41,603 nt of DNA, taken from Chloroflexota bacterium (GTDB taxonomy: Bacteria; Chloroflexota; UBA6077; SHYK01). The stretch covers positions 1 through 41,603 of the forward strand of contig DASRDP010000064.1 in assembly GCA_035652535.1 (NCBI GenBank), in the 5' to 3' direction. The translations under genes and the position numbers were made by a program. A model generated the notes under the pieces. That model saw nothing but the letters and a program-made list of their open reading frames with translations, was not told the origin of the DNA and ran no database searches. Shown here in pieces: positions 5,450-15,062 of the stretch (position 1 is its first letter; each line of letters begins with the position of its first letter).

Positions 5450-7030
5450 CTAGTCGTTTTCGGCTGGAATGACGCGAGCCATCGCGAACGTAATCGTCGC
5501 GGCCGTCGTTACCAGCGAGATGATGACGAGGAGCAGGGCGAGCCAGGGCATTGGCGGCGGTGGATCGGCAATGCCGGACGCCGGCCCCATTCCTCCGGTC
5601 GTCGGTCTGTGACTCGCGGGCGCCGCCCGGAGCGCAGGCGGGTCATCGCTCGATGGGGCTCCAATTCCCTGGACCACGGCCTGCCAGAAGATGGCCGCGC
5701 TCGGATCGATGGCGAACGCGTCGTCCGATCCGGGTAGCACTGCCGCGTTGACATCGGGATCGGGATACGTCAAATGGCGAATCGCGCTCGGGGAGAGGAG
5801 CGCTGCGCCGCTTGCATCCAGGGCGAAGGCCACCGCGTGCGCGGGGATGTCGGCGTCGGCCCAGGCGCGGAGGAGCGTCTCCGGTGGCATCAGCAGCGCG
5901 CGACCCGCTCCCTGGGCGTAGGCCGGATCGTTGTAGATGAACTGATCGCCTTTGACTCCGGTCAGCACGATGTAATGGTTCGTGCCGGGGTCGAGCCGTC
6001 CATTGCCCGGCAGGTCTGCATAGCGCGTGAGCGTGATGACGGGCTGACCCTGTTCCAGGGCGGCCCGTACGTCTTTGAGGGTCCACCGCTTCGAAATGCC
6101 GACGGGAACGAGGCCCGCGCGCTGCGCGACGGCCGCGATCGCGTACAAGGACGTGCCGTCGTCGGGGTTGCTGTCCCCCTGCAGGCGGTTGACCTCACCA
6201 CGGATCGCGTCGGTCGGATAGCCCTTGAGGCCGAAGGCCTCGAAGACCATGCCCAAAGAGGCGGGACCGCAATTCGTGGGCGCGTACAGCGTTCCGTCGA
6301 ACTGGCTGCGGTGCGGAACGCCGAGCCACAGGGTCGAGGAATCGAGCCATGCGGCCTCCGTCGATTGGGCGGGAACCCCCGCGTACCGAATGGGCGGTGG
6401 GAGGGGCAGGCCGTTGGCCCCGCGATCGCCGGTCGGGGTATCGCCGCCGTCCTCCGGCTGCACGGGGCCAGCCAGCTTCATCTTCGACGGAATGGCGGAC
6501 ATGATGGACACGTCGATCGACGGGGTGGGCTGGAACTGCGGCGTCAGCGCGATCCGTGCCAGCGCGGTGGCGGAGGCCTGCGCTCGGGCCTCCACGGCGG
6601 TCATGCGCGCTTCGGCTTCGATCTGCTGGGGCATGATCCAGGCGCCGATGTCCAGAGTGGGCGGCGGCTGGCCTGGCGCTATCGATACCGTCGGCGCGGG
6701 GGATGATGTCGGGCGTTGGGCGGTGACGTTGGCGATGACCGGCGAGCCTCGGACCAGCTCCGCGGTCGCTTCCGCGGCTCCGTAGAAGAACTGCGTTGCG
6801 ACGGGCGCCCGCGTCGGCGTATTGCTGGGCACGGGTGTCGGAGGGAAGTAGGTCGCGGTCGGCGTGAACGTTGGCGGGGGCGGCGTCGGCGTAGAGGTCG
6901 GCCACGGCGTCGCCGTCGACGTTGGCACAACCGTGGACGCCCGCGCGGACGCGTGCGCCAGGACCCAGGCGACCAGCGCGATCGTCGAGACGAGGAGCAG
7001 CCTCGGTATCAGGTTCGTGGTATTCGCCAT
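5450..7030 (-). CDS. Exported C39-fold cysteine peptidase-like protein with C-terminal membrane anchor
   Basis: The 526-aa protein starts with a signal peptide or anchor (LIPRLLLVSTIALVAWVLAH), followed by a Thr/Pro-rich stalk (residues about 35-75). The C39-like papain-fold domain runs from about 235 to 405. It shows the catalytic Cys254 in PTNCGPASLG, His352 in GTNHYIVLTGV and an Asp at 368 in YNDPA. A second membrane helix (PWLALLLVIISLVTTAATI) lies at the C-terminus. C39 domains often cleave double-glycine leaders inside ABC exporters. This one is outside the membrane with no transporter fused, so it is more likely a surface protease. The ATG at 7030 fits the promoter at 7076-7105. Confidence 0.82.
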   Translation of the reverse strand: MANTTNLIPRLLLVSTIALVAWVLAHASARASTVVPTSTATPWPTSTPTPPPPTFTPTATYFPPTPVPSNTPTRAPVATQFFYGAAEATAELVRGSPVIANVTAQRPTSSPAPTVSIAPGQPPPTLDIGAWIMPQQIEAEARMTAVEARAQASATALARIALTPQFQPTPSIDVSIMSAIPSKMKLAGPVQPEDGGDTPTGDRGANGLPLPPPIRYAGVPAQSTEAAWLDSSTLWLGVPHRSQFDGTLYAPTNCGPASLGMVFEAFGLKGYPTDAIRGEVNRLQGDSNPDDGTSLYAIAAVAQRAGLVPVGISKRWTLKDVRAALEQGQPVITLTRYADLPGNGRLDPGTNHYIVLTGVKGDQFIYNDPAYAQGAGRALLMPPETLLRAWADADIPAHAVAFALDASGAALLSPSAIRHLTYPDPDVNAAVLPGSDDAFAIDPSAAIFWQAVVQGIGAPSSDDPPALRAAPASHRPTTGGMGPASGIADPPPPMPWLALLLVIISLVTTAATITFAMARVIPAEND

Positions 7031-7075
7031 GATCCGAGCGTTCTGCCCCGGTGGATGGTACATCCGCAAGCCGGA

Positions 7076-7105
7076 AGAATACCCGCGTGCAGTCGACAAC
7101 GTCAA
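7076..7105 (-). promoter_or_regulatory. Sigma-70-type promoter of the C39-like gene
   Basis: On the minus strand a -35 TTGACG (7100-7105) and a -10 TATTCT (7076-7081) are separated by 18 bp. Transcription would start near 7069, about 40 nt before the ATG at 7030. This supports the shorter start of the C39-like gene and separate transcription from the kinase operon upstream. Confidence 0.6.
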
Positions 7106-7211: not shown

Positions 7212-8684
7212 TCACATGCCCGCTGCGACGAGGTTCCGCGGGGCCGGTCGCGTGACGAGCGGGAGCGCCACCGTGAACGCGGTGCCGTCTTGCTCCGACG
7301 TTGCCAGCTCGATCCGTCCTCGGTGCGAGCGAACGATCTCCGACGCGATCGCGAGACCCAGCCCGGTCCCTTCCCCGTCGACGCTCCCGCGGAAGAACCG
7401 CTGGAAGATCCGATCGCGGTCTTCCTCGCGGATGAACGACCCGGTGTTGTGGATTCGGACGCACGCCATGCCGTCGCGGGCGAAAGTGGAGACGGATACG
7501 CGGCCGCCCGCGGGGCTGTGGGTGACCGCGTTGGCGATGATGTTGTCGAGCACCTGGTCGATTCTGTGCGGGTCTGCCGTGATGAACAGCGGCTCCGATG
7601 CCGTGTCGACGACGAGCTCTCGACCGTTCATGCGGAGCCGAACGCGCTTCAGCGCGCCGTCGACCAGCTCGGAGAGGTTCACGACCTCCGTCTCCATCTG
7701 GATCTGCCCGGACTCGATCTTCGAGAGGTACAGGAGGTCCTCCACCATCCGTTCCATGCGCGTGGCGTCCTCCTTGATGATTCGCGCCGCTTCGGCGATA
7801 GCATCTGGGTCGTGCGCCGTGCCGTCCAGAATTGCCTCGGAGAACCCCTCGACGCTGGTGAGCGGTGTTCGGAGCTCATGCGAGACGTCGGCCAGGAAGG
7901 CGCGCAGCGTTCGGTTGGACTTCGCCACCTGCTCGGCCATGAGGTTAAAGGCGGTCGCCAGTCGGGCGATCTCGTCGTGGCCGCGGGTGGGGATCCGCTG
8001 GTTGTAGTCGCCGCGCGCCATCGCCTCGGATGCCCGTGTGATGGTCGCAAGTGGCTTGGAGATGGACCGCGCGAGGAGCATCGCCACGGTCACCGATGCG
8101 ACGAGGGAGATGAGCCCGGCGAGGCCGAGACGTCGGGCAACTTGCAGCCACTCCGCGCCGAGGCTCGCGACGGGGGCGGCGAGGGCGACGGAGTACTGCC
8201 GTGGCGGGAGCTGAGACGTCGTCTGCCGGCGCGTCCGCTCGAATCCCGAGAACGTCGGCGGCGCATTGACCGACACGATGGCGAGCGTGCCCTCGCCCGG
8301 TATGTCGGCCGTTCCCTGCATCACGGGGCTGAAGTAGTCGTTCGGCCTCGTTCCCTGGAAGTGCATGATCCGGCCTGCTAGCGTCCCGCCCGTGTCGTAC
8401 AGGACGACGGAATTGTCCTGGCGCAAGAGCAGGATTCGGAAGTTCAGATCGTCTGCCTGGTCGTCGAGGAAGCTGCCAATCTCCTCTGGGGTGGAGCCCT
8501 GGACCTCGAGGATGCGGACCTGGACGGCCAGCGGAACGGCCAGAGTGGCCAGGCGATTCAGCGCCTGCTGGGTCTGATAGGGCTGGAGCAGGTAGGCGAA
8601 AGCCGACCCGGCGAGGGCAAGACAGAGCAGAATGACCGCGGCAAACGATATGACGAGCTGGGCTCTGAGCCCACGAGGAAACAT
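7212..8684 (-). CDS. Membrane sensor histidine kinase
   Basis: The 490-aa kinase has two membrane helices (about 9-33 and 187-206) enclosing an extracytoplasmic sensor domain of about 150 residues, then a HAMP linker, a HisKA domain with the H-box LADVSHELRTPLTS (His269) and an ATPase domain. The N-box is LDNIIANAVTHSPAGG and the G2 box is GEGTGLGLAIASEIV. The G1 region reads RIHNTGSFI in place of the common D.G.GI, a deviation in the nucleotide-binding loop. It should phosphorylate the response regulator encoded 1 bp upstream. The shared operon with a MacAB-like exporter suggests it senses envelope stress or the exported compound. Confidence 0.95.
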   Translation of the reverse strand: MFPRGLRAQLVISFAAVILLCLALAGSAFAYLLQPYQTQQALNRLATLAVPLAVQVRILEVQGSTPEEIGSFLDDQADDLNFRILLLRQDNSVVLYDTGGTLAGRIMHFQGTRPNDYFSPVMQGTADIPGEGTLAIVSVNAPPTFSGFERTRRQTTSQLPPRQYSVALAAPVASLGAEWLQVARRLGLAGLISLVASVTVAMLLARSISKPLATITRASEAMARGDYNQRIPTRGHDEIARLATAFNLMAEQVAKSNRTLRAFLADVSHELRTPLTSVEGFSEAILDGTAHDPDAIAEAARIIKEDATRMERMVEDLLYLSKIESGQIQMETEVVNLSELVDGALKRVRLRMNGRELVVDTASEPLFITADPHRIDQVLDNIIANAVTHSPAGGRVSVSTFARDGMACVRIHNTGSFIREEDRDRIFQRFFRGSVDGEGTGLGLAIASEIVRSHRGRIELATSEQDGTAFTVALPLVTRPAPRNLVAAGM

Positions 8685-8685
8685 G

Positions 8686-9372
8686 CTACGTCGTCACGAG
8701 CTTGTAGCCAACGCCCCATACCGTCTGGATTCGTACGCTCGATCCGGAGATCTTGTCCCGGAGCCCGGCGACGTGGACGTCGACCGTTCGTGTGTCGCCC
8801 ACGTAGTCGTAACCCCAAACGAAATGGATGAGGCGCTCGCGGTCGAACACAACCCCCGGGTTGCGCGCGAGGGTGAGCAGGAGGTCAAACTCTTTGGGAC
8901 GCAGATCGATGGGGCGGGAATTGATGCGCACTTCCCGCCCATCGGCGTCGATTTCCATACCGTCGAGGTGCACGAACCGGGAAGGGTTCTTCCCGCTCTG
9001 ATACCGCCGGAGCACAGCCTTCGTTCGGGCGACGAGCTCCCGGGGGTTGAACGGCTTGGTGATGTAATCGTCGGCCCCCAGCTCGAGTCCGACGATCTTG
9101 TCCACGTCGTCGGTTCTCGCGGTCAGGATAATGATGGGGATGTCGCCTTCGGCGCGGAGCTTGCGGCAAACTTCCCATCCGTCCATGCCGGGCATCATCA
9201 GGTCGAGCACAACCAGGTCCGGGCGCGAGGTGTGGACGTGCTGGAGCGCGTCCTGGCCGTTGGTCGCGGTCTCCACCCGAAAGCCGTCTGAAGTGAGATA
9301 AAGCTTCGCAAGTTGGGTCACGTTGCGCTCGTCGTCGACGACGAGCACGGTCGCGTCGTTTATTGGTGCCAT
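8686..9372 (-). CDS. OmpR/PhoB-family response regulator
   Basis: The 228-aa protein has an N-terminal receiver domain with the acidic pair in VVDDERN, phospho-acceptor Asp57 in VLDLMMPG, Thr84 in ILTART and Lys106 in TKPF. A C-terminal winged-helix DNA-binding domain follows (LRPKEFDLLLTLARNPG, DTRTVDVHVAGLRDKI, IQTVWGVGYKL). Its stop is 1 nt from the kinase start, and its own start is 3 nt after the permease stop, so all are translationally linked. It probably controls its own operon; the GGATCT repeats at 14400-14434 are the best candidate target. Confidence 0.96.
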   Translation of the reverse strand: MAPINDATVLVVDDERNVTQLAKLYLTSDGFRVETATNGQDALQHVHTSRPDLVVLDLMMPGMDGWEVCRKLRAEGDIPIIILTARTDDVDKIVGLELGADDYITKPFNPRELVARTKAVLRRYQSGKNPSRFVHLDGMEIDADGREVRINSRPIDLRPKEFDLLLTLARNPGVVFDRERLIHFVWGYDYVGDTRTVDVHVAGLRDKISGSSVRIQTVWGVGYKLVTT

Positions 9373-9375
9373 ATG

Positions 9376-10638
9376 CTACTCGTACCGCAGCGCGTCGATG
9401 GGGTTGAGCCGGGACGCGCGCATTGCAGGATAGATACCGAAAAAGAGGCCGACGGTCGCGGACACCGTGAATGCCAGCAGCACGGCATCCGGCGCCACAA
9501 CGCTCGGTATCGACTGCCCCCCGAGCTGCAGCTCGGAGATGAGCCGCGAGAGTCCGGTGCCCATAAGTATGCCAATGATCCCGCCCGCCGCGCTCACGAC
9601 GACCGCCTCGACGAGGAATTGCGAGAGGATGTCGCGTCGCTTCGCTCCGACTGCCTTGCGAATCCCGATCTCGCGGGTCCTCTCCGTTACTGATACCAAC
9701 ATGATGTTCATAATTCCAATGCCGCCGACGACGAGCGAGATCCCGGCGATGGCCCCGAGGAAGGCGGTAAACAACCCGGTGACCTGGCTGATGGTCGCCA
9801 AGAAATCGAGCTGGGAGCTGATGACGAAATCGTCTTGAGCCACGCGGTGCCGGGTGCGCAACAGGTCGCCGACGGCCTGGATCAGGGGGTTGACCGCGTC
9901 TTCATCGACCGCCTGGATCGTGATTGTCGTCACCATGTCCGCGGCCCGCGGCGTGCGAGCCGGCTGGAGTCGCGCGCTGACCGTCGTGAGGGGAACGAAG
10001 GCCTGGTCGTCGAGATTCTGGAACGCGCCACCGCCCTTGCTCTGCATCACGCCGATGACCTTCATGATGCTGCCGGAGCGGCCGAACACGCTCACGCGGA
10101 CGTTCTGGCCCACGGGGTCCTGATCGCCGAACAGGTTGGTCGCGACGCTGGCCCCGAGCACGATCACGCGGGAGCGGGCATCCAGGTTTTGCTGTGCGAT
10201 GAAGTCGCCCTCTGCGGTGTGGAAATTTCGCACGTCCTGGTACTCGGGGGTAACGCCGACGATGCGCGTCTGGAGATTCTGCCCTCCGTAGATGAGCTGC
10301 GCCCCGCCCACGGCGCGCTCGGGCGCGACGCCGGCGGCCAGGTTCCCCAGGAAGCTATCCGCGATAGCCTTCGCATCGTCGTAGCTGAGCGTCTGGGCGT
10401 TTCCCGCCGCCGTCCGGACGTTGCTCTGCTGCCGCTGTGCGCCAGGTGACACAAAGATGAGGTTCGTGCCGAGACTCTGGACCTGCTCGGTTATCTGCTG
10501 CTGGGCGCCGCGCCCGATGGACATCAAGGTGATCACGGCGGCGACGCCGATAATCACGCCCAGCATCGTGAGGACGCCGCGGAGCTTGTTGGCCATCAAA
10601 GCCCGGAGCGCGACCCGCAGCGCTTCGACGGCGTTCAT
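9376..10638 (-). CDS. MacB-type ABC transporter permease (FtsX fold)
   Basis: The 420-aa protein has the MacB/FtsX arrangement: one N-terminal membrane helix (LRGVLTMLGVIIGVAAVITL), a large extracytoplasmic domain (about 45-280) and three C-terminal helices, with the signature GGIGIMNIMLVSVTERTREIG and IGIRKAVGAKRRDIL. Such permeases do not move substrate through the membrane themselves but drive a periplasmic adaptor mechanically. The gene overlaps the ATPase gene by 4 nt, and the adaptor gene precedes both. The ATPase is encoded separately, unlike the fused E. coli MacB. Confidence 0.94.
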   Translation of the reverse strand: MNAVEALRVALRALMANKLRGVLTMLGVIIGVAAVITLMSIGRGAQQQITEQVQSLGTNLIFVSPGAQRQQSNVRTAAGNAQTLSYDDAKAIADSFLGNLAAGVAPERAVGGAQLIYGGQNLQTRIVGVTPEYQDVRNFHTAEGDFIAQQNLDARSRVIVLGASVATNLFGDQDPVGQNVRVSVFGRSGSIMKVIGVMQSKGGGAFQNLDDQAFVPLTTVSARLQPARTPRAADMVTTITIQAVDEDAVNPLIQAVGDLLRTRHRVAQDDFVISSQLDFLATISQVTGLFTAFLGAIAGISLVVGGIGIMNIMLVSVTERTREIGIRKAVGAKRRDILSQFLVEAVVVSAAGGIIGILMGTGLSRLISELQLGGQSIPSVVAPDAVLLAFTVSATVGLFFGIYPAMRASRLNPIDALRYE

Positions 10639-11543
10639 CGGTCCCCATCCTCCGCCGGCAGATGCGCGAGGACGTCGGCCGCGCGAATCGGGCGCTCCAC
10701 TGTGTGGTCTTCCTGCACTCGACCGTCCCGAATGTGGACGACGCGGTCGCCGTGGTTGCCGACGTCTGGCTCATGGGTCACCAGGACGATGGTGATGCCG
10801 CGCTCGCGATTGAGACTCTGAAACAGGGCAAGGATCTCCTCGCTGCTGCGCGTATCCAGATTGCCCGTGGGCTCGTCGGCGAGAATGATGGCCGGTTCCG
10901 TGACCAGTGAGCGCGCGATGGCGACGCGCTGCTGCTGGCCTCCGCTCATCTCGCTCGGTTTGTGGTTGAGCCGATGGCCCAGCCCGACGGCCTCGAGCGC
11001 GGCGATGGCGCGCTCTCGCTTGTTCTTCGCGCCGGCGTAGAGCAGCGGGAGCTGGACCTGCTCGACCGCCGGCACGCGCGGAAGCAGGTTGAACATCTGG
11101 AAGACGAACCCGATGCGGCGATTCCGCACCTCCGCCAGGGCGTCGTCGCCCAATTGGCTGGTCTCGATCCCATCCAGCTCATAGGTGCCGCTCGTCGGCT
11201 GGTCGAGACAGCCGATGACGTTCATGAGGGTCGACTTCCCCGATCCCGACGGTCCCATAATAGCGACGAACTCGCCGCGGCGCACGTCGAGGTCAACGCC
11301 GCGCAGGGCGTGGACAGTCGTTTCTCCCAGCTCGTAGACCTTCGTGATCCCGCGAATGCGAATCACGGGCGGCTCGACAGCAATGGGCTGGGATGCTGGT
11401 TTCGGGTCCCCTGTCTCAGGCCGAAGCCCGCGGGAATCGGCCGGCGACTGCGCCGGGGTCGTGACGGAGCGTTCTGCAGCCGTCGTCTCGAGGTCCCGCT
11501 CGGTCGTGAGCCGGATTCCGGCGAGGACGTCGACCGCAGTCAT
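10635..11543 (-). CDS. MacB/LolD-type ABC transporter ATPase
   Basis: The 302-aa ATPase has a Walker A at residues 97-105 (GPSGSGKST), a signature at about 199-203 ([14 protein letters not shown]) and a Walker B with the catalytic Glu in [12 protein letters not shown]. It falls in the MacB/LolD/FtsE group. A roughly 60-residue, low-complexity N-terminal extension precedes the fold and is unusual. I start at the ATG at 11543, because the adaptor stop TGA lies 1 nt before it and this implies translational coupling; an in-frame start at 11582 lies inside the adaptor gene. It powers the permease encoded downstream. Confidence 0.94.
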
Positions 11544-11544
11544 G

Positions 11545-14274
11545 TCAAAAGCCCCCAGGCCTCGCAACGGGCCCGGGGCCAAAGGTGGTAATTCCCGCGC
11601 CTCCCGGTCGGGCGCCGGGGACGGCCGCGCGCGCCGCCGTGGTGGGCAGAACCACCACGTCTCCCTCTTCGAGCCCGGAGACCACCTCGGTGTTCGTATC
11701 GTTGGAGATCCCGATCTGCACGGTGCGCGCTTCGATACCGTTCGGTGTTTGGACCTGGACCTGACGCTGCTGAACGCGGGTCCGCGCCTCTGTCGGCTGG
11801 CCGCTCTGGCCCTGCGGGCGTTGAGCCTGCCCCGGGGGGCGCTGCGCCTGACCGCCCGTAGCAGCGCCGCCCTGCGCCTGACCGCCCGTGGCAGCGCCGC
11901 CCTGGGCCCGCACGGGGGACAGGGCGCGGTTCGGGACCATCAGCACGCCGTCCCGCTCGGCCGTCACGATTTCCGCGCTGGCCGTCATTCCCTGGCGCAC
12001 GCCCTGAGCGTTCTGGAGCTGGATCGTCACCTGGTACCCAACCACGCCCTGCGTTGTCGTGCTGGCCGGCGAGACCGCCGTGACCGTGCCGGGGAACCGG
12101 CGGCCCGGCAGGCCGTCGAAGGTCACGTTCGCCTTCTGCCCGACTTCAACCTGGGAGATGTCGGACTCATCGACCTGCGCGTACACCACGAGGCTGGCGG
12201 GATTGATGATGGTGATTCCGTTGCCCCCGTTCGATCCGCCGGTGCCCGTTCCGCCGCCCGTGACGCCGCTCAGGCTGTTTTCGTCGACCGCGATGTTCAC
12301 CGTGCCGATCACGCCGTCATAGGGAGCAACGATCGTCGCGTCGCTGAGGTTCGTGAGTGCATTCTGGAGGCTCGTTTGGGCCTGGGCGAGCGCCGCCCGC
12401 GCAGCGGCGATGTCGGATGGCAGGTACGGCGTCTGCTTCTCGGAAAGGGTTGCCTGCGCGGCCCGAACCGCCTGGCGCTGGGCCTCGAGGTCTGTGTCTG
12501 TCGAGGGCTGAAGTTTGAGCTGAAGCGCTGCCTGGGCAGCCAGGACCGCCTGCTGCTGTGCCTCGATGTCGGCGTCCGTGTATGGATAGACCTTGAGGGT
12601 CAGATTGTTCTGCGCTTCGCGCAAGGCGGCCTGCGCGGCCACCAGATCCGCGTCCTGCGGACCGGCGAGGAGTTGGTCCAGCTTCGCCTGCGCCGAGCGC
12701 ACGGCCGCGTCGGCCGCGTCGACGGCGGTCTGCGCGCTCACCAGGTCGACATTCTTCGGTCCACTGGTGATCTGGCTCAGATTCTGAACCGCCGCGTCAT
12801 AGCTTGCCTGTGCCGCCGCCACCGCGCTACGCGCGGATTCGACGTCGGTGGCGAGCGGTGTGACGAGGCTCTGGAGGCGTGATTGGGCGCTGGCGAGATT
12901 CGCCCGAGCCTGGTCGACCGCGGACTGGTCGCTCTGCTGGTTGGCTCCGATGGTCTGCCGAAGCTGGTCGAGGGTACGCTGGGCGCTCACGAGCTGGGTC
13001 TGAGCAACGTCGACGGCGCCGCGCGCCGCGTCGACGTCGGACGCCGACGGCCCAGCCTGGAGCTGCGTGAGCTTCGCCTGAGCGCTGTTCAGCGTTGCCT
13101 GGGCTGCCGTCACCGCGTCTGCGTCGGCCTGCCGTTGAGCTTGGGGCACAGTGCCGATCTGTTGATCCTGATCGCGCTTCGCAGTCGCGGTATACAGCGC
13201 GACCTGCGCCTGGGCGACGGCCGCTTGCGCAGCGGTGAGGTCCGCCTGGCTCGCGCCGGCCTCGACTTGCTGGAGCTTGGCCTGCGCAGAGGCGAGATTG
13301 TTCTGCGCCTGCTGGTACGCGCTCTGCGCGTTCAGAAGCTGGACCGCCGTCCCGCCCGCATTGTTGGCTTGCTGCTTCGAGAGCGCGCTCTGGAGGGCGG
13401 CTTGCGCGCTCTGGACGTCGCTCTGGGCGGCGGCGACGTCCTCGGACTTTGGATTGACGAGATCGGCGAGCTTGGTCTGGGCGCTGGAGAGGTTCGCCTG
13501 CGCAGTCTGCACCGCGCTCTGCGCCTGGGCAAGCTGCGCGGGGTAGCTGGTGGTGAGGTCATTGAGCTTCGCGCGGGCGCTCGCAGCGTTGGCCTTGGCG
13601 CTATCGAGCGCGGTCTGCGCCGCGACCAGGTCGGCGTCCTGCGGCGGTCCGACGAGCTGGTCCAGCTTGGCCTGAGCCGCGTCGACAGCGGCGCGCGCCG
13701 AGTCCACATCCTCCGGGCGACTGCCGGCCTGCATCACCTGAAGCTTCGCCTGAGCGGCCTGGAGCTGGGCCTGGGCGGAGGCGATATCCTCCGGTCGGGA
13801 CTGCTGCATGCCGGCCAGCTTGGCCTGCGCGCTGGCGAGCTCGGCCTGCGCGATGATGACGTCCTCGGGGCGAGGACCGGCCAGCTCTTGATCCAGCTTC
13901 GCTTGCGCCGAGTCCACCTGCGCCTGGGATTGTTGGACGGCGAGATCGAGCTGCGTCGTGTCCAGCCGCGCGAGCACCTGGCCGGCCTTAACCTGATCGC
14001 CAACCGCAACGTTGACTTCCTTGACCGTTCCGTCGGCTTTGAAGGTGAGTCGGCTGCTCTGGGTGGCTGCTACGTTTCCCGTGGCGTTGACGGTTGCGGT
14101 AATCGTGCCGCGAGAGACGGTCGCGGTTTGTTGCGCCACGGGCGGCGGCGGTGCGCTGATGCGCCGGTATAAGAGGACGCCGCCACCACCGATGATGATC
14201 GCGGACACCAGAAGCGTAAGCAGCGTTCCTACCGGTGGCAACCGATGTCTGCGTAACTGGCCAGCGATTTCCAT
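11545..14274 (-). CDS. Giant MacA/HlyD-like efflux adaptor with long helical repeat region
   Basis: The 909-aa protein is more than twice the usual MacA length (about 370-400). Order: membrane anchor (LLTLLVSAIIIGGGGVLLY, 18-36), first half of the lipoyl/barrel domain (49-104, with GDQVKAGQVLARLD), a helical region of about 540 residues (105-645), then the returning lipoyl half (IVAPYDGVIGTV), barrel domain (VGQKANVTFDG), a Gly/Gln-rich insert (AQGGAATGGQ twice) and a membrane-proximal domain. The helical region has about 18 units of 26-35 residues ending in turns such as GPRPED or GPQDAD. The ATG at 14274 is chosen because the anchor starts there and an upstream ATG lacks support. It should couple the MacB-type permease and ATPase to the envelope. 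Confidence 0.9.
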   Translation of the reverse strand: MEIAGQLRRHRLPPVGTLLTLLVSAIIIGGGGVLLYRRISAPPPPVAQQTATVSRGTITATVNATGNVAATQSSRLTFKADGTVKEVNVAVGDQVKAGQVLARLDTTQLDLAVQQSQAQVDSAQAKLDQELAGPRPEDVIIAQAELASAQAKLAGMQQSRPEDIASAQAQLQAAQAKLQVMQAGSRPEDVDSARAAVDAAQAKLDQLVGPPQDADLVAAQTALDSAKANAASARAKLNDLTTSYPAQLAQAQSAVQTAQANLSSAQTKLADLVNPKSEDVAAAQSDVQSAQAALQSALSKQQANNAGGTAVQLLNAQSAYQQAQNNLASAQAKLQQVEAGASQADLTAAQAAVAQAQVALYTATAKRDQDQQIGTVPQAQRQADADAVTAAQATLNSAQAKLTQLQAGPSASDVDAARGAVDVAQTQLVSAQRTLDQLRQTIGANQQSDQSAVDQARANLASAQSRLQSLVTPLATDVESARSAVAAAQASYDAAVQNLSQITSGPKNVDLVSAQTAVDAADAAVRSAQAKLDQLLAGPQDADLVAAQAALREAQNNLTLKVYPYTDADIEAQQQAVLAAQAALQLKLQPSTDTDLEAQRQAVRAAQATLSEKQTPYLPSDIAAARAALAQAQTSLQNALTNLSDATIVAPYDGVIGTVNIAVDENSLSGVTGGGTGTGGSNGGNGITIINPASLVVYAQVDESDISQVEVGQKANVTFDGLPGRRFPGTVTAVSPASTTTQGVVGYQVTIQLQNAQGVRQGMTASAEIVTAERDGVLMVPNRALSPVRAQGGAATGGQAQGGAATGGQAQRPPGQAQRPQGQSGQPTEARTRVQQRQVQVQTPNGIEARTVQIGISNDTNTEVVSGLEEGDVVVLPTTAARAAVPGARPGGAGITTFGPGPVARPGGF
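11842..11901. repeat. 30-nt tandem duplication in the adaptor gene
   Basis: Two adjacent 30-nt copies (11842-11871 and 11872-11901) differ at one base. They encode two copies of the AQGGAATGGQ stretch in the Gly/Gln-rich insert. It looks like a recent in-frame slippage event. Confidence 0.8.
12340..13956 (-). repeat. About 18 helical repeats in the MacA-like adaptor
   Basis: Each unit of 26-35 residues follows the pattern (V/L/I)xxAQxALxxAQAxLxxL, then a Gly/Pro-containing turn and an acidic residue. Examples of turns are AGPRPED, SRPED, GSRPED, GPPQDAD, NPKSED, AGASQAD, AGPSASD and AGPQDAD. The GxRPED-like hinge is known from HlyD-family hairpins, where one or two copies are normal. Units 4-5 and 14-15 are nearly alike, which points to internal duplication. 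Confidence 0.85.
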
Positions 14275-14474: not shown

Positions 14475-14984
14475 CTAGTGGACGTGTCCGTTCGCCGCCG
14501 GGCACACGTGCTTCCCTTCTATCGGGGCTCCACAGAGCGGGCAGCGCGGGCGGCCGGCCGCTACGATCTCCGCGATCTTGGCGCTGAGGGCTCGTACCTG
14601 CGGGCGAGAGGCGCTCCACTGGTAACGCAGCGGGCCCGGTCCCGACTCTTCCAGCTCGTCCGCGGTGAAGACGAGCCGTCGGTTGCGCTCATCGTAGCCC
14701 ACTGCGAGACGGCCTGCCCGAAAGTCGATCGACGGCCGCCCCGGGAACCGGCTGGCGAGGGTGAGGGTGGTGCGGGCTTCTTCCATCCCGCGGCCGGTCG
14801 CGCCCGCGACCTGCTGGTCGATGATGACGGCCAGCGCTTCGAGCTGTTCTTTCTCGACCCACAGCGAGAGGGTTGTGTCCCCATGTTCGGCGAGGAGGCG
14901 AAACGTCCGATGGCCGGGCGCGCCGATCGCTTCCGCGTCGATCTCGTCCACTTCTCCCAGGTCACGCACGCGTGGCTCGGTCAC
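14475..14984 (-). CDS. DUF3090 family protein
   Basis: The 169-aa protein matches DUF3090: FRLLAEHGDTTLSLWVEKEQ, LEALAVIIDQ, FRAGRLAVGYDERNRRLVFTADE and the C-terminal zinc-ribbon-like tail RPRCPLCGAPIEGKHVCPAANGH with a CPLC pair and a second Cys. The family is found mostly in Chloroflexota and Actinomycetota and has no settled function. The GTG at 14984 has GGGGAG upstream and is preferred to a TTG at 14996. It lies 200 bp upstream of the giant adaptor in the same direction but probably in a separate transcript. Confidence 0.88.
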   Translation of the reverse strand: MTEPRVRDLGEVDEIDAEAIGAPGHRTFRLLAEHGDTTLSLWVEKEQLEALAVIIDQQVAGATGRGMEEARTTLTLASRFPGRPSIDFRAGRLAVGYDERNRRLVFTADELEESGPGPLRYQWSASRPQVRALSAKIAEIVAAGRPRCPLCGAPIEGKHVCPAANGHVH

Positions 14985-15062
14985 GGATCTCCCCAAAACC
15001 GGATTGGTGAAAATGACATGGAGTCGCGGTGCGAGTGAAGGATAGCACGGTTGCCTGGAGAA

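Follow-up and report, generated by a model that had tools for sequence, protein, structure and literature searches.

The window, i.e. the whole 41,603-nucleotide stretch of contig DASRDP010000064.1 (Chloroflexota bacterium, GenBank assembly GCA_035652535.1) analysed here, carries on its minus strand a gene for a giant adaptor protein. In one operon with it, downstream on the same strand and closely packed, lie genes for an ABC transporter ATPase, a permease of MacB type and a two-component system of response regulator and histidine kinase. These genes and the conserved parts of the adaptor lie as follows:

11545..14274, minus strand: giant MacA/HlyD-type adaptor, 909 aa (domain, family and structure matches)
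14158..14229, minus strand: N-terminal membrane-anchor helix, aa 16-39 (AlphaFold2 secondary structure and hydrophobic sequence)
13963..14115, minus strand: first half of the lipoyl/barrel part, aa 54-104 (Biotin_lipoyl_2 match, AlphaFold2 strands)
12169..12336, minus strand: second half of the lipoyl domain and start of the barrel, aa 647-702 (HlyD_3 match, AlphaFold2 strands)
11938..12135, minus strand: beta-barrel strands, aa 714-779 (AlphaFold2; MacA matches reach aa 786)
10635..11582, minus strand: ABC transporter ATPase of MacB/LolD type (Pfam and NCBIfam family matches)
9376..10638, minus strand: MacB-type permease with MacB_PCD and FtsX domains (domain matches)
8686..9372, minus strand: OmpR-type response regulator (family matches; same module in relatives)
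7212..8684, minus strand: sensor histidine kinase (family matches; same module in relatives)

The adaptor gene starts with an ATG at 14274, with GGAG ahead of it, and runs to a stop at 11545; domain matches rule out a chance open frame for 11545-14274. By family membership, the 909-aa product is an adaptor of MacA/HlyD type. Pfam places Biotin_lipoyl_2 at aa 76-105 and HlyD_3 at aa 647-755 (score 39.7, cut-off 22.2), while the NCBIfam model RND_mfp (TIGR01730) returns 100.2 bits, above its cut-off of 94.9. The lipoyl domain is divided by a helical region, the feature by which adaptors (membrane fusion proteins) are recognised, with Pfam matches on both sides and AlphaFold2 strands at aa 54-104 and 647-702. 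Among proteins with solved structures, those closest to it are MacA proteins; for a relative with 3+3 tiers, Foldseek aligns MacA with a TM score of 0.67 and an E value of 5e-24. The 909-aa sequence contains no cysteine and no RLS tip motif (R-x6-L-x3-S). In its C-terminal part, a 30-bp tandem repeat (11842-11908) encodes a Q/G/A-rich stretch. A contig scan of genomes with the query P0001 returned only distant matches, in Firmicutes, Elusimicrobia and Pseudomonas.

The arrangement that marks a MacAB exporter, an adaptor gene adjoining a MacB_PCD/FtsX permease and an ABC ATPase (9376-11582 in the window), is present, here with ATPase and permease as separate genes. Since the adaptor reaches 85.3 of the 342 bits of the MacA equivalog NF008606, and the MacB equivalog NF007826 is matched with 247.4 of 966 bits, the system is MacAB-like rather than MacAB itself. 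The adaptor-ATPase-permease module is found again in relatives, often with a two-component system. Upstream of the adaptor lies a DUF3090 gene (14475-14996), and because the same gene adjoins the adaptors L049 and L050, which come from two further genera within the window's family, these copies are syntenic orthologues. Beyond the two-component genes, on the same strand, lies a gene for a C39-like cysteine peptidase (5450-7105), which occurs there in the relative L048 as well.

Which envelope this pump stands in can be judged from gene content. Omp85 was found in none of 61 genomes of the phylum, with seven control genomes positive, and a search for a TolC/OEP-type protein in the window's genome was likewise negative. 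The envelope around the pump therefore lacks the customary machinery of an outer membrane, and the host appears to have one membrane and no outer membrane, as the first-pass annotation had supposed for the likely host group. Peptidoglycan transpeptidases are present. The placement of the phylum as Chloroflexota agrees with the 21-28 reductive dehalogenase matches that some of its genomes, single contigs of 1.4-1.7 Mb, contain. A Chloroflexota envelope can still be layered, and its outer layers are unexplained (PMC13319060). Four draft genomes from the phylum, each lacking Omp85, do have clear TolC/OEP matches (G001:C298, G013:C12, G015:C452 and G042:C270), which may be contamination or real.

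Between the two lipoyl halves, AlphaFold2 predicts a helical region of 538 residues (aa 107-644) made of 16 helices, two of them of double length, which gives 18 segments. Together with the family matches, this bears out the initial description: an adaptor resembling MacA, with some 18 helical segments over about 540 residues. Each segment comprises one helix and a short GPxxED-like break, at a spacing of about 26 or 33 aa. The repeat copies are 60-75% alike in DNA, and no exact DNA repeat within the helical region exceeds 15 bp. The array is thus old rather than an assembly artefact; a collapsed or expanded assembly, named at the outset as a possible source of the repeats, is thereby ruled out. 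The parts of the region lie as follows:

13159..13956, minus strand: hairpin arm 1, aa 107-372, nine helical segments (AlphaFold2, break profile)
13144..13158, minus strand: hairpin tip, about aa 373-377, QIGTV (centre of mirror symmetry; AlphaFold2 helix gap)
12343..13143, minus strand: hairpin arm 2, aa 378-644, nine helical segments (AlphaFold2, break profile)
13582..13716, minus strand: look-alike units 4-5, aa 187-231 (sequence repeat comparison)
12598..12732, minus strand: look-alike units 14-15, aa 515-559, mirror partners of units 4-5 (repeat comparison and mirror analysis)

Evidence on how these segments are arranged comes from the family. Using a break-motif profile trained on the family to list the breaks of each helical insert, the spacing of breaks in 52 proteins proved to be mirror-symmetric around a central tip, rare lengths included. 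One L076 adaptor, for instance, reads 26,32,32,33,40 on one side of the tip and 40,32,32,33,26 on the other, and L047 reads 26,26,26,32,39,32 and then 33,40,33,26,26,26. Of the 475 breaks in these 52 proteins, 406 are paired with one at equal height in the opposite arm; the tally of unmatched breaks is of restricted value, since many of them reflect motifs that the calls missed. The tier counts of both arms correlate at 0.93, an arm resembles its own partner arm far more than arms swapped between proteins (0.868 versus 0.470 +/- 0.024; 0 of 20,000 permutations), and matched mirror segments are equal to within one residue in 69/69 cases, compared with only 69% of neighbouring segments. For the window protein alone, the permutation test of mirror symmetry is not significant (p 0.1), so that the single-hairpin case rests on the symmetry of the family and on the AlphaFold2 arms of 266 and 267 residues. 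This model was built from a 25-sequence alignment and has a mean pLDDT of 78.7; pTM is low in both predicted models (0.39 for the window protein and 0.49). Taken together, sequence and model indicate that the helical region probably forms one hairpin with two arms of ~266 residues and segments in register. Scaled from EmrA (84-residue arm, 127 Å), each arm would probably measure about 40 nm if straight, the usual hairpin enlarged about six-fold. In L054, L060, L078 and others, the tip loop often contains two cysteines, which suggests a disulfide-closed tip.

The same symmetry changes the view of the two look-alike units, which the first-pass annotation had taken as a sign of growth by duplication. 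Units 4-5 and 14-15 share 22 of 28 residues in the best window. They oppose each other at equal height in opposite arms (4+15 = 5+14 = 19), and mirror partners in general are slightly more alike than other segment pairs (36 of 52 proteins). In units 4-5 and 14-15, synonymous sites are saturated, with 12 of 28 identical residues sharing a codon and an expectation of 0.49. Given this saturation and the mirror partnership, a recent duplication of these units is not supported.

Within Chloroflexota, the long-hairpin form is common, as a comparison of repeat number among relatives, advised by the same annotation, revealed: insert lengths in the phylum run from 98 to 667 residues. That annotation had also counted homologues with an ordinary single hairpin as evidence against its reading; these do exist (insert 98-121 aa), but only at the lower end of an unbroken range of lengths. 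A given length goes largely with the genome. In a less biased length set, the HlyD_3 hits in chosen genomes, the genome accounts for most of the variance of log hairpin length (ICC 0.78 over 10 lineages; permutation maximum 0.44); this sample replaced a first figure (ICC 0.93) that was biased by the long query. The length of the giant insert is therefore largely a property of the genome, a rule with exceptions in the form of 200- and 213-residue adaptors in long-hairpin genomes and of hairpinless adaptors. Two of the latter, with frames of 295 and 314 aa, are encoded in the window's genome (L269 on G000:C84, L270 on G000:C16), one of them on a contig with another MacB-type permease.

The rule extends to pumps of different types. 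With the partner type (MacB or RND) assigned by same-strand adjacency, the window's genome has three long adaptors of 520 (the window adaptor, MacB), 485 (MacB) and 498 residues (by an AcrB-type RND pump). In G003, a genome of the same family, the MacB type measures 259 and the RND type 222, both types being about halved together. Over 12 families, the median lengths of MacB-type and RND-type adaptors correlate with an r of 0.976 (0 of 20,000 permutations), and with 0.979 over 11 families once clade-switching cases are removed. The near-equal hairpin length of MacB-type and RND-type adaptors within a genome is a new observation. The AcrB-type pump beside a second giant adaptor lies at 5501-11409 of L046 (G000:C115; ACR_tran, 872 bits), in a genome that yielded no Omp85 and no TolC-type protein.

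Among known systems, MacA of E. coli MacAB-TolC (PDB 5nik, 9qgy) has the same lipoyl and barrel domains, an N-terminal membrane helix, a gene adjoining a MacB-type transporter and the single antiparallel hairpin that we infer for the window adaptor. Unlike the MacA hairpin of 67 Å (PMC4158417), however, that of the window adaptor is segmented and would be about six times longer, and its system differs from MacAB-TolC in having no TolC, no RLS tip motif and separate ATPase and permease genes. Spr0693-0694-0695 of Streptococcus pneumoniae is likewise a MacAB-like exporter with a MacA-like adaptor and a separate ATPase and permease in a bacterium without an outer membrane; the helical barrel of Spr0693, a precedent for a tube in the absence of an outer membrane, is 56 Å high (PMC5768738) and has no tiered extension. 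A very long hairpin is also found in EmrA of Aquifex aeolicus (PDB 4tko), whose two-stranded antiparallel hairpin of 168 residues and 127 Å has been termed exceptionally long and has heptad breaks at about equal height in both helices (PMC4158417). EmrA partners an MFS pump and TolC, whereas the window adaptor has 538 residues and many paired breaks in its putative hairpin. The hairpinless BesA of Borrelia has the same core domains and stands at the opposite end of the length range. Literature searches for Chloroflexi adaptors with hairpins and for YbhG hairpins found nothing.

The reading that we favour, as somewhat better than an even bet, is that of a MacAB-like exporter adaptor whose tiered hairpin of ~40 nm acts as a conduit and has its length set by the envelope. 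The adaptor would serve a MacAB-like ABC exporter in a bacterium without an outer membrane, with the hairpin stretched to two arms of ~266 residues that form nine tiers of paired segments with matching breaks. If the analogy to MacA and Spr0693 holds, a stacked tube may form from six copies on a MacB dimer, and this tube would carry the substrate from the membrane through the wall or the outer layers; of the functions first proposed, the spanning of a thick wall is our best guess. Expression is probably under the control of the neighbouring two-component system. Since unrelated pumps within a genome have nearly equal hairpin lengths, the tier number appears to be matched to envelope depth; the length match is observed, its cause presumed. 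A stronger version, which we put forward only tentatively, is that hairpin length is a genome-encoded ruler: ABC and RND pumps would be cut to nearly one length, the distance between the membrane and an outer barrier or docking layer that has neither Omp85 nor TolC.

Somewhat doubtful, though the best of the alternatives, is that the long hairpin is a stalk or anchor, which ties the pump to the wall or some outer layer or engages a partner there, with the substrate leaving near the membrane. The absence of an outer-membrane exit duct (Omp85, TolC/OEP) would fit this idea, and hairpinless adaptors with similar domains in the same genome imply that export needs no tube. Foldseek also aligns the model with enterococcal PrgA (PDB 6z9l), a long coiled-coil surface protein of a Gram-positive; PrgA is a surface-exclusion protein not known as part of a pump, and the likeness is that of a Foldseek alignment. 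Conversely, the homology to MacA and Spr0693 is to proteins that form hexameric tubes, and the equal length of ABC and RND adaptors calls for a reason, although a fixed anchoring distance would supply one.

An improbable alternative is that hairpin length is nearly neutral and drifts by unequal crossing over or gene conversion, its equality within genomes reflecting ancestry or conversion between paralogues. Repeat arrays can indeed undergo conversion, and close orthologues keep their length strongly (one genus has 461 residues in three genomes, another genus 270). Yet, a quick tree of the conserved domains sets most MacB-type and RND-type members apart (SH-aLRT 99, four partner changes), which means that their length match is not simple descent, and both clades hold short as well as long members that agree genome by genome. 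For pairs of 30-40% identity, the median length gap is 4-10 residues inside a genome, compared with about 150-160 between families. The joint halving in the window's family also argues against drift, as does mirror equality to within one residue, which requires two matched changes per tier.

Equally little credence can be given to the idea, listed as an option by the first-pass annotation, that each break reverses the chain and the 18 segments pack as a compact multi-helix bundle or zig-zag ribbon, wide rather than long. GPxxED-like breaks do look similar to helix-turn-helix loops, the hairpin domain of CusB has three helices (PMC4158417), mirror symmetry by itself would also suit a folded double ribbon, and the Foldseek TM scores of a short member (0.67 to MacA, 0.73 to hairpinless BesA) are compatible with an extended or a folded shape. 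Chain reversal is nevertheless unlikely, because mirror segments match in length where neighbours need not, because a double-length helix twice stands opposite a broken pair in the AlphaFold2 model, and because relatives with an ordinary hairpin (99-107 residues) have an unbroken helix where L077 carries AGPKPED; arms with odd and even numbers of tiers also end in the same kind of tip.

If the favoured conduit is also a ruler, the tier count would report the depth of the envelope, and a receptor substituting for TolC would be expected at that distance. That adaptors retain a hairpin in bacteria with a single membrane has been described as puzzling (PMC4338810). A tiered, mirror-matched hairpin whose length is common to unrelated pumps makes both this puzzle and the question of the Chloroflexota outer layers testable: the number of tiers predicts an envelope distance that is measurable by cryo-tomography, and the tip predicts the site of a TolC substitute. 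In addition, the family provides segmented antiparallel coiled coils in a naturally graded set, ranging from 4 segments to more than 18.
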